50,851 nt of DNA from a virus. The number at the start of each line of letters is the position of its first letter. Position 1 is the stretch's first letter. Position numbers and translations under genes: made by a program. Location: IMG/VR virus record IMGVR_UViG_3300003873_000049, positions 1-50,851 of that record; one strand, 5' to 3'. Positions 13,088-23,581 of this stretch are shown here, one piece after another. Under the pieces are notes generated by a model. It was not told the DNA's origin and ran no database searches. It saw only the letters and a list, made by a program, of their open reading frames with translations.

Positions 13088-15232
13088 TTATAGGTCATAA
13101 TTTTCTAATTCGTTAAGTAGACAACTGTTTTCCTTTACAAAAAATCCTAATGTCTCGAGCATCATATATAATGCTCCACAGTTATCTCTTATAACTCTTT
13201 TATAATCAATTATATCTTTCAGAACATCAGGTATACCATTATTATAAACTATTATTAACGGTAATCTAAATATAGTTATCTGAGATTTGTCGGCAGTACC
13301 CATAACCTTTCTTAAGTTATTTGCTATATAATCATCTTCTATACTATCTAACCATTCTTTCATTAATCCTTTAGTATACAGTGTTGTCGGCAATTTTATC
13401 GCCATATACTGTGGTTCAGGTGCTTTACCATACTGTAATTCAAAAACATTTGTCCATAATGTATGATGAAAGTAAGGAGATTTGTTAGGTCCTAGTTTAT
13501 AAGCTGTGGCACTCTTAATTTTCTCTAGTTTTAATACATCGGGTGAACCGTCTTTTATCATATTATAAACAAGTCTTTCTCCTTCTAATACCTTATTAAG
13601 ATAATAGCTTAGCTCTAACTTTTCGTTATTAGATACTTTATTCGTTATATCTAATTGTAACTCACTACCTAACTCTCTCATAGGACCATATATGTTGCTA
13701 CTTATCAAGTTCACACCCTTAACTTCTAGTGCTTTTAAAGGGTTATCTTTATAATCCAAAACATTTCCTTCCTGTATATTTATTTTTGCGAAGTAGTGTT
13801 TACTAACATTAGTATTAACAAAAACTTTCCAAAAGAATTCGTTCTTCATAGCTAGAGGTTTAGTATCGTCATATAGTATATTCATATTTACTGCAAATGC
13901 TTTTATATAATGATCTACTACCTGAGAAGTTATAGACATAACCGTAGCTGTTAATGAAACCGCGTCATCCGTAAATACATCTTTCCCGTAATACCATACT
14001 ACCCAGTTCCTATATGTCGCACAAGTACTATCTGTGTCGGATAAGACAATAGCTTCTCTAACCATCTCTTTAACATAAGCAACACTAACAGGGAAAATAT
14101 CTGTTACTAGAAATGTTTTTAATAAAGGTTCATAATCAAATATATTATTTCTGAAGTTTTTTATAAATGAAGCTATATGTCGTTTATCTGTTAATGAGAA
14201 ATCATCAGGTTTTTTACCTATAATTAATGAACTAGCAACATGTATTGCTAAGTTCATTAACCAATCTTCAGAAGACTTCATAATCTTATCACATTCTTCT
14301 TCAGATATATTTTCTATATCAAACTTTATAAGTGTAGTCATTAACTTTCTTACTAGACTATCGTTAAACTCTCTTAAGTGATATAAATCATTATGGTAAA
14401 GTACATAAGCTCTTTGATAACCATCTAGTTTTCTAAAGTAATCTAAAAGGATAGCTTCTTTTTCAACATCTCTCCAATATTTAGCAGATGATTTTAGCAT
14501 AGCCATAAGTAACTCTTCAGGAGTTGGTACTCGTAACCTATAATCTATAATTACCTTTTTAACTTTATTATAATCCATAGATGAAACTATAGTCGCTATA
14601 TGGTTAAATGTAATATCAGGATTTCTGTAATGTCTATTACCAGAAATAATAGATTCAGACAAAGCGTTCCCAATTCCACTAATAATTCTTGTCATACTTG
14701 TCAAAGTATAATGGGCGGAGGGATTAGCGAGAATTGTCGATCCAGAAGCGTAACTTCCTGATAACGAGTTGTTAAAAATCTTTTTAACTTTTTGTATAAC
14801 ATTATGATAGTTGAACTTATCGTAGTTCTTTTCTTGTCTATACTTAAAAGCTAACTTCTTATGTCTAGACCTATCCTTAACATTAATATCAATGAATTCT
14901 GAGTGTAATGATTGTTTTTCTTTACGACTAAAGTAGACTGTAAAACTAGGCACCATAATCCTACCAGTTTTCTTAACATGACTTATATAGTTATTAAGAG
15001 TGTCTACTTTAATACCTCTATCGCCCTTTAAATCTCTTTCCCAAAACTTAACTTTAGGATTGCGGTATTGCTTAGTTTCCTTTATATAGTTCTTAATCTT
15101 TTCAGTAGCATTAGTAATACCTGTAATTTTAGATACTACTCCTGAAGCTATACTGAAATAATCTCTTATAGGGTTAATTTTATTCTTATATTCTTCTTTT
15201 TTATACCTAAATATATCTGATACACTTCTCAT
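13088..15232 (-). CDS. Family B DNA polymerase, C-terminal fragment (split gene), 714 aa
   Basis: Polymerase motifs are in the right order. Residues 93-120 look like the fingers region after motif A. Motif B is K151-x3-N155-S156-x-x-G159, followed by an AHYTLTSMTR helix. Motif C is SDTDS at 398-402. The KxY motif is KHY at 478-480, and EVKG at 503-506 leads into the thumb. Motif A and the 3'-5' exonuclease are absent: the chain begins roughly 150 residues before motif B. Motifs B and C are about 240 residues apart, against roughly 60 in RB69 gp43, so there is a large insertion. The reading frame has its own AAGGGAG site, so it is probably translated as a separate subunit. The N-terminal piece is not in this window. 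A homing endonuclease lies directly upstream. Confidence 0.75.
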   Translation of the reverse strand: MRSVSDIFRYKKEEYKNKINPIRDYFSIASGVVSKITGITNATEKIKNYIKETKQYRNPKVKFWERDLKGDRGIKVDTLNNYISHVKKTGRIMVPSFTVYFSRKEKQSLHSEFIDINVKDRSRHKKLAFKYRQEKNYDKFNYHNVIQKVKKIFNNSLSGSYASGSTILANPSAHYTLTSMTRIISGIGNALSESIISGNRHYRNPDITFNHIATIVSSMDYNKVKKVIIDYRLRVPTPEELLMAMLKSSAKYWRDVEKEAILLDYFRKLDGYQRAYVLYHNDLYHLREFNDSLVRKLMTTLIKFDIENISEEECDKIMKSSEDWLMNLAIHVASSLIIGKKPDDFSLTDKRHIASFIKNFRNNIFDYEPLLKTFLVTDIFPVSVAYVKEMVREAIVLSDTDSTCATYRNWVVWYYGKDVFTDDAVSLTATVMSITSQVVDHYIKAFAVNMNILYDDTKPLAMKNEFFWKVFVNTNVSKHYFAKINIQEGNVLDYKDNPLKALEVKGVNLISSNIYGPMRELGSELQLDITNKVSNNEKLELSYYLNKVLEGERLVYNMIKDGSPDVLKLEKIKSATAYKLGPNKSPYFHHTLWTNVFELQYGKAPEPQYMAIKLPTTLYTKGLMKEWLDSIEDDYIANNLRKVMGTADKSQITIFRLPLIIVYNNGIPDVLKDIIDYKRVIRDNCGALYMMLETLGFFVKENSCLLNELENYDL

Positions 15233-15284
15233 TATTACTCCCTTATTTCAACTATATATCCTCTATGAAAAAAAGAAATAAGTT

Positions 15285-15322: not shown

Positions 15323-16894
15323 TTACCAGATATAATCCTTAGTTAACTTCTTATGTATTTTACGAGCTTTAATTTTAAGTATAGACGAACTATTGACTCC
15401 GTACTTTATACCTAACACTACACTCGATATACTAGGTACTTTCTTAAAATCCTCTATAAGTTTACCTATATTATCCTTGGTAAATATAGGTGGTTTCTTA
15501 TCTTTAAACTTATATAGTTTACTAATACTACCATGTCTAGTGCCGTTCTTAATCATATCTATAACACCAACAGATACATTAAACTTAGCTGCTAATTCAA
15601 ATCTACTTAGTTCTTCAGACACTAAGTACTTACAAATATCATGAACATTCTCTGTAGTTAATTTCTCCTGATTACGGCTTGGGAAACTGTAATCATTAGA
15701 TATATGTAACCAAGTCTTATGTTCAAATATAGACCTTATAGTAGCTGGTGCTACATTAAACTGTTTAGCTATATTAATAACAGGTATATTCTTATCCATT
15801 AATAATTCACAGACCTCTTTAACATCGTTATCATTTAGCTTAACCTGACTTCTATCTGGGAAGTTATAGTCTTTACTTATATCATTATGACTTGTTCTAC
15901 CTAGTATCGTGTGTACTACTCTGAAACTGACTCCTACTATCATAGCTATATCTGCAGTACTATTATTTAAGTCCGTTAATAACTCGCATACTTGTAACAC
16001 CTGTTCTCGTGTTGTTGTTCCTACTACTCTATATGGGAAATTATAGTTTTTAGTAATATGTTTCCAAGCACTACCGCTAACTATATTACGTATGTCCGTA
16101 CCGATTACACCACAACCAATAGTTATCTCCTTATAAGTTAATCTTGGATTCATTAGCTTGTTACTGATACATATAACTTCTTTCTCTGTTAGTTTAGAAC
16201 TAGTACTATCTTCTCCTCTATTATTTTGTAGTCCTGTATCTATAGCGTGATGTACATTTTCAATATGTGTAACCCACTCTAAATTTATAGCTACATTATT
16301 ATTAGTAACCCCGTCTATATGATTAACCACATCCCTACCTATTGGTTTAGGTATAAAAGCACTAGCTATTAACCTATGTACTAATAATCTTTTCTTACCA
16401 TCGTAATTAGTTAAGACTACTCTTATATACCCGAAGTTATCCTCTTTTAAACTTAATAAGTTACCAGATACTATATTCTTAACCTTACCTAGATTACTTA
16501 CTTTATAATTAGGATAGTCCTTTACTACCCTCCATTCTTCTTTTATCTTCTTTCTGATTATTGGATATATAAGTCCAAAATCATCAGACCTACACCATTT
16601 TAGATTAGTAACATTGTTATTACTCTCGTTGAAATCTAAGTGTTTCACATCATCTAACTCATCTACTTTATCTAGATATAACTCAGCTACTAGTTGATGT
16701 ATACTAAATACCTGTCGATTATTAACATCTAATACATCGTTATCTTTAGTTAAGATATATATCTTATGTTTCTTGTTATTGGTATGTGAGTATAACTTTT
16801 TATCTATACCAACTACAACTCTTATTTTACCTGTGTTACTAACTTCATAGTCAGTAAAGTCAGGTACTGTTTTCCATAATTCTTTTAAGCCCAT
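15323..16894 (-). CDS. HNH homing endonuclease with duplicated module and HTH array, 523 aa
   Basis: There are two NUMOD4-HNH modules. The first (about 5-105) is altered (HLDF instead of HIDG). The second (118-215) is intact, with WRVVKDYPNYKVSNLGKV, then LVHRL (His173), NHIDG (His192), TNNN and INLEW (about 203-207). Residues 233-523 hold five tandem units of about 55 residues. Each has a helix-turn-helix-like core, and most close with a W.HIS.DY.FP-like segment (units ending near 287, 346, 405, 463 and 523). The array would give a long DNA recognition surface. It is free-standing and immediately upstream of the polymerase fragment, a classic position for an endonuclease that targets the gene it splits. 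Confidence 0.85.
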   Translation of the reverse strand: MGLKELWKTVPDFTDYEVSNTGKIRVVVGIDKKLYSHTNNKKHKIYILTKDNDVLDVNNRQVFSIHQLVAELYLDKVDELDDVKHLDFNESNNNVTNLKWCRSDDFGLIYPIIRKKIKEEWRVVKDYPNYKVSNLGKVKNIVSGNLLSLKEDNFGYIRVVLTNYDGKKRLLVHRLIASAFIPKPIGRDVVNHIDGVTNNNVAINLEWVTHIENVHHAIDTGLQNNRGEDSTSSKLTEKEVICISNKLMNPRLTYKEITIGCGVIGTDIRNIVSGSAWKHITKNYNFPYRVVGTTTREQVLQVCELLTDLNNSTADIAMIVGVSFRVVHTILGRTSHNDISKDYNFPDRSQVKLNDNDVKEVCELLMDKNIPVINIAKQFNVAPATIRSIFEHKTWLHISNDYSFPSRNQEKLTTENVHDICKYLVSEELSRFELAAKFNVSVGVIDMIKNGTRHGSISKLYKFKDKKPPIFTKDNIGKLIEDFKKVPSISSVVLGIKYGVNSSSILKIKARKIHKKLTKDYIW

Positions 16895-21730: not shown

Positions 21731-23581
21731 TTAGTAAGACATAGGTCTAGAAGTTGCATTAGCGAAACCATTATAACCTTGATTACCACCATTATTCATT
21801 TGTCCAAATTGTAGGTTACCTATATTAGAAGTATATGCTTGTGACACTACTTGCATATTAGCACCTGCTATAGCACTTCCTGGTAAATTAACACTTGGTG
21901 CATATCCTTGTGTAATTGCTGTATCTGCCATAAAGCGAATGAGTTTATCATTAATGATAGCTCTATATGCTACTGATGTAAGTGTAATCTTAATACCTAG
22001 TTCCATAGACAATCTGTTCCAAACATCCATTTTAACTTCTAATGGTGTTTTACCAGTATAAGATGCACATGCATCAGCAGGGAAGTTACTGAAGTTCCAT
22101 AAATCTATTAGCGACTGGTCATTACTATTAGCCGCTATAAATACAGCATCAATCTCTCTAGCATCTCTAACATTATTATCAGAGTCTGTAAACTCACCAA
22201 TAGGTACTAGACAACCTTTAACAAGTTCAAATGGTAGTCTAGGTAACTTAACATCATTTAGTAGACCTGATACTTCTTTAAGAATTTTAAGATTAGCTGC
22301 TGTTGCTGTCTCAGGATTACTTAGAGCTACTATATCTTTACTGTAAGCGAAATCAGCACCGAACACTTCTATCTCTACAGCGAATAGTGGATCCATATCA
22401 AAGTGTGTATTAAGGAAATCTTTAATAACAGTCTGGTCAGCTGCAGTATCTTTGAAACTGAATCTCTTACCAATATGACCTTTCTCACCACCATAGTTTA
22501 ATTTACTGTTAAGACTACCAGCATCTTTTTCCATGATTAAACTTGTTAACAGGTTAGGAGATGTTAATGGGAATGCATTAATTAAAGATAGTAATACAAA
22601 TCTTAATGTTGGTGCCGCACCTAAGAACTCGTTCAAGATAACAATAGGTCTAGCACTTTCTACAGTAACACCTGGTAAACCATTAGCTACTTGCTTTGGA
22701 CTGATAACGAAGTCTAGGTAACCTGTAGCATATGTGATAGCTGATTTAGAAGACATAATGTCTATACCAAAGTTCTCAGTATTGGAAACTACACTAGACT
22801 CTAACACGAAGTCTGTCTTAACTGATTTACCAGAACGGTTAACAGTTGTACCGAATGTTGTAGATAACTCTACTTTAAGGAATCTCTTATCACGAAACTC
22901 AGCAATAGCTTTTAAAGATACATCTGGGATTTTACCTGTGTCTATATTAACTCTATTAAAGATAAGGTCATGAGCAAATCTAGTAACCGCTCTTGAAGTT
23001 TCTTCTACATTAATGTTTGATGGGATAACCTCACCGTCTAAACATACTCTTGGTAGATTACCATATTTACCAACAAGCACTTTGTCAAAGATTTCAACAA
23101 TTCTAGGATCAAAAGCATCAGCAGTTGTGGATAGTCTTGCGTTTGTTTTTCTAGAACCATTCATATTACCAGCCTCTTGTTCAGCCATAATATCAGATAA
23201 AAGTTTCGGTTCAACACCTGTCTTCTCTAGCACTACTGAGTAGTAGTAAATTTTGTTACTTGGTGCTTTGTAAGCATATACGATATATGTGAATAGTATA
23301 TCAAACTTTTCAGAAGAGATTTTAAGTGGCTCGATATCTAGTACCATATCTTCTAGTGTAGGTCTGATTTCATCTACGAACTCTTTAACGTATTTTGTAT
23401 GCATGTTATTGCCACCTGATAACATGTTGTAACCACTGTTTAATCCAGCCGCAAACATACTCATTTGTGGTGCAGGTCTACTAACTTCTTCGTTAACTGT
23501 TTCAGTACTAGTTGTGTCTTGTGCTATAGAAGATACGAACTCTTCTTTACCTGTGTTGTTTTGTCCATTGTTTAAAGCCAT
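21731..23581 (-). CDS. Abundant virion structural protein, major capsid candidate, 616 aa
   Basis: A large protein of balanced composition. It has a flexible Asn/Ser/Thr-rich N-terminus (1-55), an alpha/beta body, and a Gly/Asn/Gln-rich tail (about 565-616). Features suggest high expression: a strong AAAGGAG site, its own intrinsic terminator, monocistronic layout and its own promoter-like block of a class shared only with the gene at 47660. Codons also look less AT-extreme than neighbours. No enzymatic motif is seen. No other protein here is a better capsid candidate, but I do not see a diagnostic HK97-fold signature, so it could instead be a tail or decoration protein. Confidence 0.5.
   Translation of the reverse strand: MALNNGQNNTGKEEFVSSIAQDTTSTETVNEEVSRPAPQMSMFAAGLNSGYNMLSGGNNMHTKYVKEFVDEIRPTLEDMVLDIEPLKISSEKFDILFTYIVYAYKAPSNKIYYYSVVLEKTGVEPKLLSDIMAEQEAGNMNGSRKTNARLSTTADAFDPRIVEIFDKVLVGKYGNLPRVCLDGEVIPSNINVEETSRAVTRFAHDLIFNRVNIDTGKIPDVSLKAIAEFRDKRFLKVELSTTFGTTVNRSGKSVKTDFVLESSVVSNTENFGIDIMSSKSAITYATGYLDFVISPKQVANGLPGVTVESARPIVILNEFLGAAPTLRFVLLSLINAFPLTSPNLLTSLIMEKDAGSLNSKLNYGGEKGHIGKRFSFKDTAADQTVIKDFLNTHFDMDPLFAVEIEVFGADFAYSKDIVALSNPETATAANLKILKEVSGLLNDVKLPRLPFELVKGCLVPIGEFTDSDNNVRDAREIDAVFIAANSNDQSLIDLWNFSNFPADACASYTGKTPLEVKMDVWNRLSMELGIKITLTSVAYRAIINDKLIRFMADTAITQGYAPSVNLPGSAIAGANMQVVSQAYTSNIGNLQFGQMNNGGNQGYNGFANATSRPMSY

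Follow-up and report, generated by a model that had tools for sequence, protein, structure and literature searches.

The C-terminal subunit of a phiKZ-type split family B DNA polymerase encoded in a fragment of a chimallin-encoding phage

The DNA polymerases of phiKZ-type phages form a divergent family B cluster (PMC7544198), and a split-subunit enzyme has already been stated for phiKZ, OBP and SPN3US (PMC5105663, PMC5694885), the phiKZ case being mentioned in the first of these reports (PMC5105663). These divergent polymerases have been described as carrying an "unusually long multi-helical insert" throughout the family and as having no fused exonuclease, a separate exonuclease being encoded elsewhere in the genome of phages that also lack a recognised primase (PMC7824862). 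In an antisense knockdown plaquing screen, phiKZ 050 and 082, both annotated as DNA polymerase, score, as does 049, an SH3-domain protein described as a polymerase interactor (PMC12571901). The DNA polymerase of phage RAY, gp220, has been found in the phage nucleus, and the genomes of chimallin-encoding phages range from 167 to 322 kb (PMC10299810). No solved structure or biochemistry of the two-chain enzyme was found in the open-access literature.

The window analysed here, the whole stretch of 50,851 nucleotides, carries a gene for a 714-aa protein that is best explained as the C-terminal subunit of a two-chain, T4/RB69-like replicative polymerase, the source being a jumbo phage that is related to phiKZ and encodes chimallin, with a PHROG 3011 partner encoded far off on the same genome. 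This reading, to which a probability of about 95% is assigned, draws direct support from the identity and motif content of the gene, the complementary partner in relatives, the co-inheritance of the two and the family B fold. Specifically, residues 11-702 match the Pfam family PF20286, "Divergent Family B DNA polymerase", at 572 bits (E=2.3e-171; cut-off 25.7 bits), covering positions 2-695 of the 705 in the profile, so that this copy is full-length by the standard of its family and shows no losses; the PHROG 2927 "DNA polymerase" profile scores 584.6 bits (E=6e-175). Homologues were found by tblastn in 276 phage records, 272 of which cover at least 80% of the query in one place, and include phiKZ gp050, PhiPA3 gp047, OBP gp055, SPN3US gp18 and the proteins of Goslar and RAY. 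In IMG/VR, 382 relatives were found, the best 80 of which were used for metagenomic comparison. No NCBIfam model exists for either subunit, and plain sequence and profile searches with the 714-aa protein matched no polymerase in the PDB.

Table 1. Coordinates of features in the window and in related sequences
Feature	Sequence	Position	Strand	Remarks
C-terminal polymerase subunit gene (fingers, palm motif C, KxY, thumb), phiKZ-type split family B	window	13088..15232	-	714 aa, ATG start
Ribosome binding site AAGGGAG	window	15238..15244	-	five bases 5' of ATG; read directly
dNTP-binding pair R121-x3-K125, first fingers helix	window	14858..14872	-	invariant 39/39
Motif B KIFNNSLSG, K151-G159	window	14756..14782	-	K151, N154, N155, S158, G159 invariant 39/39
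Multi-helical B-to-C insert, about residues 163-393	window	14054..14746	-	AlphaFold helices, relatives' spacing
Motif C SDTDS, residues 398-402	window	14027..14041	-	D399, T400, D401, S402 invariant 39/39
KxY motif, KHY 478-480	window	13793..13801	-	invariant 39/39
Homing-endonuclease-like gene (NUMOD4 + HNH_3), immediately upstream of the 714-aa subunit gene	window	15323-16894	-	
Nuclear shell protein (chimallin)	window	21731-23581		phrog_4795, E=1.2e-11
C-terminal subunit interrupted past motif C	phiR1-37, NC_016163	109897-112172	-	g167 ends ...VNMKSE
Group I introns RF00028 at partner ORF break	L124	3845-4196, 4403-4774		tandem pair
Group I intron RF00028 at partner ORF break	L129	3823-4244		
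Group I intron RF00028 at partner ORF break	L140	3947-4240		
Group I intron RF00028 at partner ORF break	L160	3884-4209		
Group I intron RF00028	L168	5281-5663		weak match

An earlier note on this DNA, made from its letters, had recognised a family B polymerase with motifs B, C and KHY and a large insertion between the first two, all of which were found at the residues it gave (K151..N155S156..G159, 398-402 and 478-480). Conservation and spacing figures derive from an alignment of 39 relatives' sequences, across all of which K151, N155, G159, D399, D401, K478 and Y480 are unchanged. The note had likewise reported that the frame starts with its own ribosome binding site and holds neither motif A nor an exonuclease region; the start context reads directly as AAGGGAG-TAATA-ATG, and both regions are indeed absent from the 714-aa protein sequence. 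Its placement of the split before motif B requires correction. While the split is real, motif B is preceded by 150 residues, including a first fingers helix whose invariant R121/K125 pair lies 30 residues ahead of it and has the R-x3-K spacing of RB69 R482/K486. With this helix ahead of motif B, the two chains part between motif A and the fingers, and the 714-aa subunit, judged from its sequence, contains the whole fingers domain. The note had called the split unusual; it is not so in the sense of being new, given its publication for phiKZ, OBP and SPN3US (PMC5105663, PMC5694885).

Within motif B, Ser158 occupies the position of RB69 Tyr567, a base-selection residue. The residue is Ser in all 39 family members aligned, against Tyr in RB69 gp43, and phiR1-37 keeps Tyr. 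An effect of this replacement on fidelity is possible.

The spacing from K151 to D399 is 248 residues (245-295 among the 39 aligned relatives), as compared with about 61 between K560 and D621 of RB69 gp43. In the AlphaFold model of the subunit (mean pLDDT 90.8), residues 171-389 form a helix bundle for which pLDDT is mostly 90 or higher, and motif C sits in a tight beta hairpin with strands at 395-398 and 403-405. A Foldseek search of the PDB returned RB69 gp43 first, at a probability of 0.99-1.00, with other family B polymerases mostly next; the Foldseek E-value, at 7e-4, is modest, which the large insert probably explains. The model thus predicts a family B-like fold around D399/D401, where the earlier note had taken a palm-less model as evidence against its reading. 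As for the role of the insert, the simplest guess is that it contacts DNA, the SH3 protein or further components of the replisome. An unlikely, more elaborate idea is that the insert (about 187 residues) takes over a missing replisome function such as primer synthesis or processivity, and that assembly of a two-chain palm acts as a checkpoint on where or when replication starts.

The regions missing from the 714-aa chain are present in a second protein of its relatives. SPN3US gp44, a separate 594-aa protein of PHROG 3011, carries exonuclease motifs together with motif A (DADLTQAYPS), and homologues occur in 292 phage records, phiKZ gp082 and OBP gp099 among them. Members of this family contain a T4-like N-terminal domain, an exonuclease with the motifs D-x-E, WN..FD and YN..D, and a motif A of the form DxDxxxxYP. 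Nine aligned proteins agree without exception in D-x-E, WN, YN..D and D-x-D...YP. When the partner was modelled alone, its N-terminal and exonuclease regions were predicted confidently, with RB69 gp43 again the best match (E=1.8e-12), and residues 427-524, the palm piece with motif A, reached a pLDDT of only about 32. Such a low value would be expected, other causes being possible, if the palm folds only against the other chain, and is in this sense suggestive. The earlier note had reasoned that the enzyme is assembled from at least two polypeptides, which is also the reading favoured here, and had proposed a search for an ORF with exonuclease motifs and motif A that lacks motif B; such an ORF is found in the relatives, where the complementary PHROG 3011 partner is encoded, although it is missing from the window itself.

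Several observations bear on the relationship between the two genes. Of 25 metagenome contigs with the C-terminal subunit gene, 22 also carry PHROG 3011, at a distant locus. Across 14 genomes in which both subunits are full-length, the distance matrices of the two correlate with r=0.947, a value reached in none of 2000 permutations; this correlation is expected from shared descent and is compatible with co-evolution. Searches of the window in six frames with the PHROG profile and a custom HMM of 35 partners gave nothing significant, and the partner was likewise not found in the 106-kb contig of a relative with 52% identity. For the source phage, the partner gene was not recovered because the contig is an incomplete, 50.9-kb fragment, and it presumably lies in the unsequenced remainder of the genome.

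Consideration has to be given to the idea that the 714-aa protein is a decayed or inactive paralogue, replication being carried out by another, full-length polymerase; both were alternatives entertained in the earlier note. A chain without motif A and exonuclease cannot, on its own, form a family B active site, and the protein does not combine PF00136, exonuclease and motifs A, B and C as a canonical single-chain enzyme does. Decay is nevertheless extremely unlikely: the catalytic residues are all invariant in the 39 relatives, the family profile is matched over its full length, and knockdown of phiKZ gp050 impairs plaquing (PMC12571901). Nor was a full-length polymerase detected, PF00136 having no match anywhere in the window and neither PF00136 nor PF00476 rising above its cut-off in any of ten relatives, of which six are complete phage genomes; sub-threshold PF00136 matches in three of the ten fall on the same C-terminal subunit (fingers and motif B). 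A further alternative grants the 714-aa chain a first palm aspartate of its own and reduces the PHROG 3011 protein to a stand-alone exonuclease rather than a structural half, in keeping with the published description of a polymerase without fused exonuclease and with the exonuclease separate in the genome (PMC7824862). However, the separate protein bears motif A as well, along with a T4-like N-terminal domain: in the 80 partner loci, uninterrupted ORFs containing motif A end 67-149 residues past it, none extending into motif B. No conserved motif A candidate emerged in the 714-aa chain from its alignment with relatives, and this alternative is accordingly held to be very improbable.

A different question is whether an intact polymerase was broken recently in the source phage, by way of an intron or of the NUMOD4/HNH gene that lies directly upstream of the subunit gene. 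Homing elements do break phage replication genes, and some relatives have group I introns in their partner gene. The boundary of the split, however, is the same in phiKZ, OBP, SPN3US, Goslar, Ea35-70 and 22 metagenome contigs, and it is therefore ancestral and not caused by the adjacent homing endonuclease gene; Staphylococcus phage SA1 and Yersinia phage phiR1-37 also encode the halves separately. A fused polymerase gene was never seen among the partner loci of relatives, close relatives included. Within the window itself, the lack of any Rfam match and the contiguous, full-length gene ruled out both an intron and a recent split. Taken together, a recent break has next to no likelihood, and an ancestral two-chain enzyme remains the preferred reading. 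Given the separate halves in SA1 and phiR1-37 and the B-to-C spacing in the latter, both the split and an insert appear, from sequence comparison, to predate the chimallin-encoding group.

Additional interruptions were observed in both genes. In phiR1-37, where motif B is canonical (KILANSYYG) and the B-to-C spacing is 197, the C-terminal subunit is interrupted past motif C, the remaining family profile being found in a separate 244-aa frame; this points to a third split or else to an insertion. The homing endonuclease beside the 714-aa subunit gene bears no similarity to the one beside the phiR1-37 subunit. Among the 80 relatives, the partner ORF stops just short of motif A in seven (L124, L129, L140, L154, L160, L168 and L181), and four of these have group I introns at that position (Table 1), such that introns recur in the DNA coding for the active site of the split enzyme.

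The genomic surroundings of the subunit gene are those of a phiKZ-type phage. In addition to chimallin, the window encodes a tail sheath protein (phrog_3242), a virion protein (phrog_3004), a vertex-binding protein of the phiKZ type (PF25614) and other phiKZ-type virion proteins, as well as a UvsX-like recombinase, a helicase and a MazG-like protein. The presence of chimallin alongside phiKZ-type genes identifies the window as a fragment of a nucleus-forming phage. The place held by the NUMOD4/HNH gene is taken in the 52% relative (L001) by a different gene, by eye a candidate ThyX-like one. A profile search of the window found no PHROG 3235, the SH3-like polymerase neighbour, which was found in 10 of 11 relatives. 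PHROG 3235 normally adjoins the phiKZ-type polymerase gene and stands well away from it in three contigs (L013, L017 and L022; G002, G004 and G006); the two genes are therefore distant in at least part of the clade to which the window belongs.

In the mechanism proposed for the two-chain enzyme, the PHROG 3011 partner would contribute one set of metal-binding aspartates, in palm motif A, as well as the N-terminal domain and the 3'-5' exonuclease, and the 714-aa chain would supply the fingers (R121, K125, K151, N155), motif C (D399, D401), KxY and the thumb, its insert probably contacting DNA or the replisome. Association of the chains would bring motif A to face motif C in one palm, yielding a single proofreading polymerase that is presumably assembled and active in the source phage. 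Since the motif A and motif C aspartates reside on different chains, a working palm must form from two proteins of distant genes. What the present analysis adds is the exact site of the cut, which places the aspartates of motif A in one chain and motif C in the other at the same point in every phiKZ-related phage examined. Both the association of the subunits and the role of the insert are directly testable with phiKZ gp050 and gp082.

Among described systems, RB69 and T4 gp43 share with the two-chain enzyme the fold of both halves, the order of the motifs and the type of exonuclease, yet consist of a single chain. In group 2.2 jumbo phages, DNA polymerase III alpha is likewise encoded in two separate parts (PMC7824862), albeit of an unrelated, pol beta-like fold. 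The split polymerase of OBP and SPN3US (gp18 plus gp44 in the latter) has the same layout, with exonuclease and motif A in one chain and fingers, motif C and thumb in the other, and its two genes lie far apart, whereas the partner for the source phage does not lie within its contig. The closest counterparts are phiKZ gp050, PhiPA3 gp047, OBP gp055 and SPN3US gp18, equal to the 714-aa subunit in length and boundaries, and, as PF20286/PHROG 2927 polymerases of the phiKZ group, sharing its motif B, helical insert, motif C, KxY and thumb. The subunit differs from this group in the divergence of its sequence (about 26-32% identity to cultured phages and at most 57% to the best 80 of 382 metagenomic relatives), in its NUMOD4/HNH endonuclease neighbour and in the absence of PHROG 3235 from the fragment. 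The split and the large helical insert are already known features of the phiKZ group, of which this gene is an ordinary member.
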